Assembly (NCBI GenBank): GCA_021802375.1
Contig: JAKAAL010000050.1
Location: forward strand, 1 to 12,346
Source of the DNA: Bacillota bacterium
GTDB taxonomy: Bacteria > Bacillota_E > Sulfobacillia > Sulfobacillales > Sulfobacillaceae
Reading direction: 5' to 3'
Length of the DNA stretch: 12,346 nucleotides
Shown one piece after another: positions 5,527 through 12,086 of this stretch (position 1 is the stretch's first letter; the number at the start of each line of letters is the position of its first letter). Made by a program: the position numbers and the translations under genes. The notes below the pieces were generated by a model. That model was not told the DNA's origin and searched no databases. It worked only from the letters and a program-made list of their open reading frames with translations.

Positions 5527-5980
5527 TTAAGCAGAACCGGGTGAGGAGCCGCTGACCGAACTCTCGGCCACTTTCTGCCAATTACTCGCCGGGTTGATGT
5601 CGCGGTCATGCGGTGTCTGGCCCTGTGGGTATGTCCATGCCCGCACTTTTAAGGGCATTTTCGGAATCTTGTAGCCGCCGCCCGAACCGGTTTTGCACCG
5701 GGGATACCAACGGTCCACGACGGTGACCGTTTTCCCGCGTTGCCCCGCTTTGTATTCCAATTGACAACCGAACTCGCCAGCGCCCCTATCCGCAATCATC
5801 CGAGCCAGCTGATGATTTTTGAACCACCCCGCGACGTGCCAATCTTCGATGGCGATGACATCGAACCAGTCCGCGCGCATCGCGGTCAGTGGATGTAGCG
5901 CATTCGCCCGAATGATTGCGATCCGAGCAAGAAGCCGAGCGATACGACGTTGCGCACTTCGAAGATTATCATAATTATCT
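5527..5980 (-). pseudogene. C-terminal remnant of a TnpB (IS200/IS605 family) protein
   Basis: About 150 residues match the C-terminal half of TnpB, the RNA-guided nuclease of IS200/IS605 and IS607 elements. Visible are the arginine-rich helix SAQRRIARLLARIAIIRANA, then FDVIAIEDWHVAGWFKNHQL with the second RuvC glutamate, EYKAGQRGKTVTVVDRWYP, and the final DRDINPASN with the last RuvC aspartate. The N-terminal half, including the first RuvC aspartate, is absent, so the gene cannot encode an active nuclease. All four zinc-ribbon cysteines have been replaced: the usual TCSGCG reads TGSGGG and the usual TCPQCG reads TYPQGQ, while residues between them are kept. An ATG 12 codons upstream (6013-6015) opens the frame but is probably fortuitous. 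It lies between the regulator and the deacylase and may have split a former operon. No TnpA is present. Confidence 0.8.
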
Positions 5981-6031
5981 CCTCTCCTGGTTGGACCCAC
6001 GTCACCGATCCCCACACTGGATTCTCACAAG

Positions 6032-10586: not shown

Positions 10587-10700
10587 CTACAATACAAAGT
10601 ATCCGACGGCAAAAAACGCGAGCAATAGTCCAACCACAATAAATGCCCACCATGGCGGACTGGACCCCTGCTGTGAACCACTCTGATTCGGCATCTCCAT
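10587..10700 (-). CDS. Small single-pass membrane protein of unknown function
   Basis: A 37-residue protein, MEMPNQSGSQQGSSPP followed by a hydrophobic stretch (WWAFIVVGLLLAFFAVGYFVL) running to the C-terminus, so a short polar N-terminal tail and one membrane helix. The frame stays open upstream to 10781, but a promoter-like element at 10746-10775 lies within that extension, so the start should be downstream of it. The ATG at 10698-10700 follows AAAAAGG at about 5 nt and is preferred; ATGs at 10719-10721 and 10692-10694 are alternatives. No family is recognised, though tiny one-helix proteins of this kind are common in spore-forming Firmicutes. It is divergent from the TusA-like gene. Confidence 0.5.
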   Translation of the reverse strand: MEMPNQSGSQQGSSPPWWAFIVVGLLLAFFAVGYFVL

Positions 10701-10719
10701 CACAACCTTTTTCTTCAAC

Positions 10720-10732
10720 ATCAATTGATCAA
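10720..10732. promoter_or_regulatory. Overlapping palindromes ATCAATTGAT / TTGATCAA
   Basis: Two overlapping perfect palindromes (10720-10729 and 10725-10732) lie in the predicted leader of the small membrane-protein gene, just past its expected transcription start. A repressor site is possible; there is no other support. Confidence 0.2.
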
Positions 10733-10745
10733 CAAAGTCTACTGT

Positions 10746-10775
10746 AGTGTACCCACAACTCCGACCATCTGTCCA
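10746..10775 (-). promoter_or_regulatory. Candidate promoter of the small membrane-protein gene
   Basis: Minus strand: TGGACA (10770-10775), an 18-nt spacer, TACACT (10746-10751). The -35 matches five of six and the -10 four of six consensus bases. Transcription would start near 10739, about 40 nt before the preferred ATG. Confidence 0.35.
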
Positions 10776-10827
10776 TGGCACGCTAGAGTGAACGCCATCT
10801 GTGCATTGAAAAATCTTGTCGCCGTTA

Positions 10828-10857
10828 TTGACGTCATAATATTCACGCCAGTATGAT
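10828..10857 (+). promoter_or_regulatory. Sigma-A-type promoter of the TusA-like gene
   Basis: TTGACG (10828-10833), an 18-nt spacer and TATGAT (10852-10857) form a good sigma-A pair, five of six matches in each hexamer. The start point would fall near 10864, leaving a very short leader with the GGAGG site at or near its 5' end, which is unusual; the true start may be slightly different. Confidence 0.45.
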
Positions 10858-10876
10858 AAAAGCGGAGGCGATCCTT

Positions 10877-11128
10877 ATGGCAAAAATACAACTGGATATT
10901 AGAGGCCAATGCTGACGAGCACCCCTCATCAGTGTCACTGATGCCCTAAACCCGGTGCCTATAGGCACGCAACTCGATATATTAACTAACAAATGGTCCG
11001 TGGTTAGAGATATGCAAGCCTATGCCCATATGACGGGGCACACTTATCTAGGATATCGCGCCCATCCAGATTTACCCGAAACCTGGTGGGTTTATTTGGA
11101 GAAAAGCCTTAAGGCGTTACCGACCTAA
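10877..11128 (+). CDS. TusA-family sulfur carrier with in-frame TGA at the catalytic Cys: candidate selenoprotein or nonsense-disrupted gene
   Basis: An 83-codon frame interrupted only by a TGA at codon 13 (10913-10915). The start is MAKIQLDIRGQC, then TGA, then RAPLISVTDALNPVPIGTQL. The rest includes VVRDMQAYAHMTGHTYLG and ends YLEKSLKALPT. This is the TusA/SirA/YedF fold: LDxRGxxCPxP, then the ALxxxPxGxxL helix, the RDI/MxxFxxxxGH block and a final strand. Without gaps the TGA falls exactly on the catalytic Cys that carries persulfide sulfur in TusA. The codon before it is Cys and the first Pro of CPxP is Arg (CGA); the second Pro is kept. GGAGG at 10864-10868 lies 8 nt before the ATG, and a sigma-A-type promoter precedes it. 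A SECIS-like stem-loop follows the TGA. If UGA is read as selenocysteine the product is a full-length 83-residue protein with a Cys-Sec pair; if not, only 12 residues are made and this is a young pseudogene. The end is 1 nt from the end of the convergent phosphofructokinase gene. Confidence 0.6.
10919..10958 (+). promoter_or_regulatory. SECIS-like stem-loop just after the in-frame TGA
   Basis: CATCAGTG (10927-10934), one T, and CACTGATG (10936-10943) form a perfect inverted repeat. As RNA it folds into 6-7 bp with a 3-5-nt apical loop containing GU near its start (UGUCA, or GUC). The loop begins 17-18 nt after the TGA; known bacterial SECIS elements have a short upper stem, a G in the first two loop positions and a loop about 16-37 nt past the UGA. 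A possible lower stem pairs GCACC (10919-10923) with GGTGC (10954-10958). Function is inferred. Confidence 0.45.
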
Positions 11129-11129
11129 G

Positions 11130-12086
11130 TCATAGGGCAAGTTGTTCCGCCAGATCAAGCCAATCAAGTTGTTCTGGCTTTTCTGACTCTGCCACCGATG
11201 CTAGGGGCACCCAACAGGTCTTGCCGTTCTGCACCCCAATCATAACCCCATGAGCTCCTTGCTCTAGCGAGGCCACCGCTGCGGACCCAAAAATGGACCC
11301 TAACAAGCGATCTTTGGCGCTAGGGGGCCCTCCTCTTTGAGTATGGCCTAGCACCACCCATTTTACCTCAAAACCCGTCATGCCATTTAACTCGTTAGCT
11401 AATCGTTCGGCTCGATCCGCACCCTCTGCGACCACAATGAAACTATGTTTCTTACCGCGGGCATGAGTTGTTTGCAGACGTTCGGCAATAACTTCCGGGT
11501 TAACTGGGCGTTCCGGAATCACAATGGCCTCAGCACCGGCCGCAAGCCCCGCCCCAATAGCCAATGCCCCACTCCGATTACCCATCACTTCAACTACAAA
11601 AATACGCTCATGGGATGATGCGGTGTCCCGGATCTTATCGATCGAAGCCGTAATATTATTGACCGCCGTATCAAACCCAATGCAATCGTCGGTTCCATAA
11701 ATATCATTGTCAATACTTGCGGGGATGCCCACCACCGGAAAGCCCGCGGCACTAATGACGTGAGCAGCCTTGAGCGACCCATTACCGCCAATGACCGCCA
11801 ACCCATCCAATCCCCAATCTCGCATTTGCTGAATGGCCATTTGTTGGGTTGTTGGCGAATGAAAGTCGCCAAATCGGCAAGTGTGCAACATGGTACCTCC
11901 AGTCATGATGATATCCGCCACCGACTCTGTTTTCAGCTCTTGGCGCGTTCCTCGCACAAGTCCTTCCAATCCTCGCAAAATTCCCCACACACGATGATGC
12001 CCTAAGAGTCCTTGTCGAACAAATGAGCGAATGACAGCATTCATGCCGGGAGCGTCACCGCCCGAAGTCAATATGGCCAACTCCAC
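11130..12086 (-). CDS. pfkA: 6-phosphofructokinase, GTG start
   Basis: A 318-residue phosphofructokinase, phosphorylating fructose 6-phosphate to the 1,6-bisphosphate in glycolysis. Family blocks in order are LTSGGDAPGMNAVIR (nucleotide-binding start), GGTMLHTCRFGDF (R71, equivalent to R72 of the Bacillus enzyme), VIGGNGS, PASIDNDIYGTDDCIGFDTA (catalytic D126, equal to D127), DKIRDTASSHER, VVEVMG, and LGHTQRGG (R of the substrate site). The length equals that of Bacillus PfkA. Unusual: the Mg-ATP-binding Asp of the GGDGS motif (D103) is Asn102. The residue after the motif glycine is not the Asp that marks PPi-dependent enzymes, so ATP remains the likely donor. The GTG at 12084-12086 follows AGGAGG with 8 nt spacing. 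It is convergent with the TusA-like gene, with one base between the stops. Confidence 0.95.
   Translation of the reverse strand: MELAILTSGGDAPGMNAVIRSFVRQGLLGHHRVWGILRGLEGLVRGTRQELKTESVADIIMTGGTMLHTCRFGDFHSPTTQQMAIQQMRDWGLDGLAVIGGNGSLKAAHVISAAGFPVVGIPASIDNDIYGTDDCIGFDTAVNNITASIDKIRDTASSHERIFVVEVMGNRSGALAIGAGLAAGAEAIVIPERPVNPEVIAERLQTTHARGKKHSFIVVAEGADRAERLANELNGMTGFEVKWVVLGHTQRGGPPSAKDRLLGSIFGSAAVASLEQGAHGVMIGVQNGKTCWVPLASVAESEKPEQLDWLDLAEQLAL

Follow-up and report, generated by a model that had tools for sequence, protein, structure and literature searches.

Does a TGA codon on the active site of a sulfur-carrier gene encode selenocysteine (Sec), or does it mark a gene in decay? The question is raised by a TusA-like gene in a 12,346-nucleotide (nt) stretch of DNA, here called the window, which covers positions 1 to 12,346 of contig JAKAAL010000050.1 (assembly GCA_021802375.1) from a Bacillota bacterium of the Sulfobacillaceae. 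TusA proteins pass sulfur for tRNA modification, cofactors and sulfur oxidation and have one carrier Cys, which takes sulfane sulfur from IscS-type or DsrE/rhodanese donors. A first-pass annotation of the window had described a TusA-like frame at 10877-11128 behind a strong ribosome binding site, with a single TGA on the sulfur-carrying Cys, a Cys codon before it and an Arg codon after it, and had proposed a candidate new selenoprotein. Each element of this description was confirmed, and the proposal is supported by a TGA in all 15 members of the clade that we identified, by Sec machinery in relatives and by the lack of TusA in selenoprotein inventories. Judging from sequence and homologues, the window gene very probably codes for a selenoprotein of 83 residues that belongs to the TusA sulfur-carrier fold family, here called Sec-TusA, and we infer with high confidence that Sec is inserted at its UGA.

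A TusA-like gene with an in-frame UGA

The features of the gene are listed below; the clade consists of the window gene and 14 relatives.

10877..11128, + strand: predicted Sec-TusA gene, ATG, 83 codons including the UGA, then TAA (sequence and homologues)
10913..10915, + strand: in-frame TGA, codon 13, predicted Sec13, on the TusA catalytic Cys; TGA in 15 of 15 clade members
10910..10912, + strand: TGC, Cys12, which would pair with the adjacent Sec13 (vicinal Cys-Sec); L034 has Gly, the other 14 of 15 sequences have Cys
10864..10868, + strand: Shine-Dalgarno sequence GGAGG, 8 nt 5' of the ATG (sequence)
10828..10857, + strand: sigma-70-like promoter TTGACG-18-TATGAT (consensus scan; by itself no proof of function)
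10927..10943, + strand: predicted bacterial selenocysteine insertion sequence (SECIS) hairpin CAUCAG-UGUCA-CUGAUG, 5-nt loop, GU at 10934-10935

Read through the TGA, the window product matches the Pfam TusA family PF01206 at 39 bits (cut-off 28.6), and all 15 clade proteins match this family at E values up to 0.01. A profile alignment with Escherichia coli TusA/YhhP (1dcj) places the TGA residue on the Cys of the CPxP motif; the next codon in the window is CGA (Arg). The structure model is a confident TusA fold, with the beta-alpha-beta-alpha-beta-beta two-layer arrangement present, and Asp45 is invariant in 53 aligned sequences. GGAG was found within 18 nt of the start in 11 of the 15 homologues, window included. 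The same promoter-like site lies 5' of the gene in the relative L001 (L001 2301-2330, consensus scan), and positions 10700-11250 contain two promoter-like sites on both strands together, against a mean of 0.6 in shuffled sequences. Downstream of Sec-TusA lies a convergent pfkA, which itself ends in TGA, and UGA is a regular stop among the genes around Sec-TusA.

Recurrence of the UGA and evolution of the clade

A scan of the read-through window protein against GTDB species contigs yielded L001 (best-segment identity 87%; metagenome-assembled genome FK_Sedi_B_Bin.12) and L002 (77%; metagenome-assembled genome DBS1-3.bin87), two relatives that both have a TGA at the same codon. A six-frame search with a three-row alignment, run on 151 genomes that comprise G002 (the source of L002) and those around it, gave TusA-like matches in 57 genomes and a match with one internal TGA in 14. 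When these loci were read, the TGA lay on the catalytic position in 14 of 14 genomes, within the motif [LIVE]D[ILV]R[GE][QLF][CG]-U-[RGLA]. A chance TGA is excluded by its recurrence at this codon in 14 other genomes, and the 15 separate sequences likewise exclude a sequencing error at 10913-10915.

The Pro that follows the catalytic residue is gone in all 15 clade members, which have R, G, L or A instead, and none has the catalytic Cys of the CPxP motif, UGA standing there without an adjoining Pro. The Arg for Pro, which the first-pass annotation had counted as a sign of decay, is accordingly a property of the clade. The part before the UGA is conserved, with D7 and R9 invariant and G10 and C12 nearly so. 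In a phylogenetic tree, a branch with a support of 100/99, obtained from only 85 columns, separates the 15 TGA-bearing proteins from 38 Cys-TusA proteins (38 of 40 Cys rows were kept, L090 and L095 being dropped as near copies of L089). The clade contains two subgroups, A (n = 9, window included) and B (n = 6), of single-domain proteins of 75-95 residues.

The ratio of nonsynonymous to synonymous substitution rates (dN/dS, Nei-Gojobori) was 0.165 between the window and its closest relative, G001 (dS 0.33), and about 0.06 between the window and G002, a pair with saturated dS. The remaining four pairs for which the ratio was finite gave 0.21-0.31. There are few amino-acid changes 3' of the TGA, and dN/dS is low over the gene; the gene and its part after the UGA are under purifying selection. 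The earlier concern that this strain alone might carry TGA among Cys-coding relatives was not borne out: all 15 members found have the TGA, in a gene under purifying selection, and no Cys members within the Sec clade were seen among the loci read.

Stop-free TusA-like matches also occur in 10 of the 14 TGA genomes, and further matches were found in G009; the Sec form is thus, as a rule, an additional paralogue. A truncated database piece named Candidatus Hydrogenisulfobacillus filiaventi is identical in sequence to the open reading frame (ORF) after the TGA in G036. Of 398 genomes drawn from the phylum, 172 gave a match, and 29 of the 30 loci read from this draw contained the motif, with Sec in two (G002 and G009) and Cys in 27. 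Sec-TusA is likely, but not proven, to be limited to Sulfobacillus-like lineages, since the remaining locus (L077) was not picked up by the pattern, and five lower matches for which a TGA was listed (G172, G195, G357, G153 and G251) lie beyond the 30 loci read.

Two divergent TusA-like sequences, L029 (G027) and L036 (G023), lack the catalytic Cys motif, have longer C-termini and were set aside. An extra Cys occurs near the C-terminus in five of the six subgroup B proteins (L027, L028 and L030-L032; RLASC, RSPRC, RTAGC), the sixth, L034, having Ser.

The selenocysteine machinery in relatives

Among the 14 TGA-TusA genomes, selB was found above cut-off in 11, selD above cut-off in 12 and selA in 10, with at least one of the three in 13. 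The tRNA-Sec(UCA) was confirmed by ARAGORN in eight and was not found in the other six, of which G078 had only a 50.8-bit match. All four components occur together in 8 of 14 genomes (G002, G006, G009, G032, G036, G058, G116 and G147). Co-occurrence with the Sec trait is necessary support rather than proof, because selA is found in 104 of the 151 genomes. Each of the 16 selD matches listed has one in-frame TGA. In the two genomes that have a chromosome-sized contig, Sec-TusA and the sel genes lie far apart. A comparison of Sulfobacillus genomes, in the excerpts available, reports putative Sec-containing formate dehydrogenases in all (PMC4378227).

Four genomes (G058, G078, G116 and G141) have two selD matches above cut-off each, every match with one in-frame TGA. 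A second, Sec-shaped tRNA (L005:1503-1592; L113-L121) measures 89-95 nt by ARAGORN and matches Rfam tRNA-Sec at 52-65 bits; its anticodon is GCA (tRNA-Cys) in 10 of 10 loci examined. Lower Rfam tRNA-Sec matches were rejected as evidence, those examined being tRNA-Ser (37-43 bits) or tRNA-Cys (52-65 bits).

A hairpin downstream of the UGA

Within the coding sequence of subgroup A, a stem of 6 bp, capped by a 5-nt loop, begins 11 nt 3' of the UGA. In the nine sequences, 54 of 54 pair cells are formed; one pair changes on both sides (A-U to G-C in G009), and two others vary on one side. Positions 2-3 of the loop are GU in all nine. Bacterial SECIS elements are described, in the excerpts of PMC4607533, as a hairpin just 3' of the UGA with a G in the apical loop, and all nine subgroup A sequences have such a hairpin. 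Its shape is less uniform in subgroup B (n = 6). Where the middle codon of the hairpin encodes Ser, it is AGY in 8 of 8 sequences, the local share of AGY being 24-43%; the codon of G141 is AGA (Arg), and the stem is kept.

Compared with synonymous shuffles, the stem score gave p = 0.010 for the window and p = 0.008-0.130 across the nine group A sequences, against p = 0.132 to 1 (none below 0.05) in 13 Cys-TusA controls, these being the 13 of 20 loci L029-L048 that match the motif pattern. For free energy, the Fisher combination was p = 0.0015 in group B. The Fisher combinations cover seven of nine group A and five of six group B sequences (L019, L024 and L032 left out), and their p values are optimistic because the sequences are related. 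The best stem in selD of G001 and G002 has its loop 17 nt 3' of the UGA, the same as in group A. When 14 selD loci were folded, with no shuffle control, seven had an uninterrupted GGUCC-GG[AC]-GGACC at this position and the rest imperfect forms.

Comparison with known families

The clade is a Sec variant of the TusA fold family and not a TusA orthologue, because UGA replaces the Cys and the adjoining Pro is absent in 15 of 15. It has in common with E. coli TusA (YhhP; PF01206/COG0425) the fold, the length, the LDxRG motif and a catalytic position at the start of helix 1, and differs in having Sec for Cys, in the loss of the following Pro (15 of 15) and in the preceding Cys (14 of 15). Against the NCBIfam TusA model (cut-off 78), the window protein scored 16 bits and three other clade proteins scored 23-26 bits.

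YedF/SirA-like proteins (TIGR03527, PRK11018) have the TusA-type domain and the selenium theme in common with the clade, and SirA-like YedF is linked to SelD in the excerpts of PMC2432076 and PMC5322559, which make no mention of Sec in YedF. YedF combines a CPxP motif with an additional DsrE-like domain (excerpts of PMC5322559), whereas the clade has one domain with UGA and does not lie near selD. The window protein matches PRK11018 at 16 bits (cut-off 79), and three other clade proteins gave 12-22 bits against YedF cut-offs of 79 and 110, the best E value of the 15 being 2.8e-5. The association with YedF suggested in the first-pass annotation is therefore not upheld.

The inventories of prokaryotic selenoproteins comprise 87 families in 2022 (Table 1 of PMC9312934) and 119 in May 2026 (Table 1 of PMC13188914), and TusA, SirA, COG0425 and PF01206 are absent from both tables. 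The nearest families in both are the DsrE-like, rhodanese-like and YeeE/YedE selenoproteins, which resemble the clade in handling sulfur with Sec but belong to other domain families (PF02635, PF00581 and PF04143), none of them PF01206. The CU-motif selenoproteins (KCU-star, SaoL, SaoC, HgcA and MbdU; table of PMC13188914) likewise have a Cys adjoining Sec; the NCBIfam matches listed for the 15 clade proteins include none of their models, none of those that the same table cites for two papers on new families, and no other selenoprotein model. A search of titles and abstracts for TusA together with selenoprotein or selenocysteine, with subscription papers and preprints outside its scope, found no Sec-TusA described. 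The clade thus probably represents, on sequence grounds, a new selenoprotein family within the TusA fold family.

Protein searches, one of them scoring the best 7992 candidates by shared words, returned from the clade only pieces starting after the UGA; the candidates were limited by shared words and length, so that full-length entries elsewhere are possible. Five pieces (P0002, P0005, P0006, P0008 and P0009) are C-terminal parts of Sec-TusA genes with starts after the UGA, and Sec-TusA shows in this way how annotation drops such genes. Two others, P0007 and P0010, appear to be further clade members on short contigs.

Alternative explanations

A decaying pseudogene, with the TGA as a nonsense mutation in a dead TusA gene, would account for the deviation of two neighbouring codons from the CPxP consensus, but it is extremely unlikely: the TGA is common to all 15 diverged sequences on a well-supported branch, dN/dS is low with few changes 3' of the TGA, GGAG-type sites precede 11 of 15 starts, and the window and L001 have a promoter-like site in common. 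The conserved TGA and the purifying selection downstream in effect refute it. It is also very improbable that the UGA is a real stop, closing a 12-residue leader peptide ahead of a truncated TusA translated from a downstream start. Public databases do annotate such truncated pieces, but their start positions differ, such a product would lack the first strand and the active site, the strong Shine-Dalgarno sequence of the window precedes the upstream ATG, and the leader part is itself conserved. Reading of the UGA as an ordinary amino acid, through a reassigned code or as Cys by a suppressor tRNA-Cys, might seem favoured by the Sec-shaped tRNA-Cys of G002 and nine other loci; their GCA anticodon, however, cannot read UGA, neighbouring genes use UGA as a regular stop, relatives hold a true tRNA-Sec(UCA), SelB and Sec-SelD, and a hairpin follows the codon. 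We consider this reading highly unlikely.

Several observations weigh against a Sec-containing TusA. The machinery has been shown for relatives and not for the window's own genome; the check for selA, selB, selD and tRNA-Sec proposed in the first-pass annotation succeeded in relatives and failed in G003 (a 1.7-Mb assembly), where none of the four was found, the source genome being outside the search. The selA match of G002 contains one TAA, and selA discriminates poorly (10 of 14 TGA-TusA genomes against 94 of 137 others). For the hairpin, a single pair changes on both sides, the covariation score was reached by 60 of 500 shuffles, the group B stem values (p = 0.025-0.264, n = 6) overlap the controls, the free-energy signal of group A is weak (Fisher p = 0.098), and the excess of identical codons between the window and G002 (7 of 8 in the hairpin against 20 of 45 outside) is borderline (p = 0.050; run test 3071 of 20000). 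Foldseek gave no match at E of 0.001 or below, the best hit, at 2.2e-3, being TusA. With regard to function, the ORF comparison of the 15 loci, made without a family search, showed no clade-wide partner gene.

Proposed function

If Sec-TusA is a selenoprotein, UGA codon 13 would be read as Sec by tRNA-Sec(UCA) and SelB, and SelB recoding would be steered by the hairpin within the coding sequence. The Sec13 selenolate, at the N-terminus of helix 1, might take over sulfane sulfur, and the adjoining Cys12 might resolve the Sec13-bound sulfur, so that Sec-TusA would work alongside the ordinary Cys-TusA of the same cells as a redox-active relay for sulfur (or selenium). We put forward this relay, with Sec13 as carrier and Cys12 as resolving residue, as the likeliest function, but only tentatively. 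The wider view of a dedicated selenium-based sulfur-carrier clade in Sulfobacillus-like Bacillota, in which a Cys-Sec pair stands for xCys-Pro in such a relay and possibly delivers selenium to the cell's own SelD, is speculative and rather doubtful. Were these proposals true, they would place selenium at the TusA carrier atom in a new selenoprotein family. Whether selenium accelerates persulfide transfer or gives the carrier redox activity could then be tested directly, and a connection would be made between selenium use and the sulfur metabolism of bioleaching bacteria.

Neighbouring genes and other features of the window

When the ORFs around the 15 Sec-TusA loci were compared with each other, pfkA was common to the window, L001 and L002, and other neighbours were common mostly to close pairs (L061/L062 and L068/L069). 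Elsewhere in the window, a gas vesicle cluster of this Sulfobacillus-like bacterium occupies positions 1-2245 on the - strand, with gvpG (cut by the window edge), gvpF/L, gvpN and a gvpA-type gene. A fragment with a Cas12f1-like TNB domain at 5527-6015, also on the - strand, is likely a TnpB remnant.
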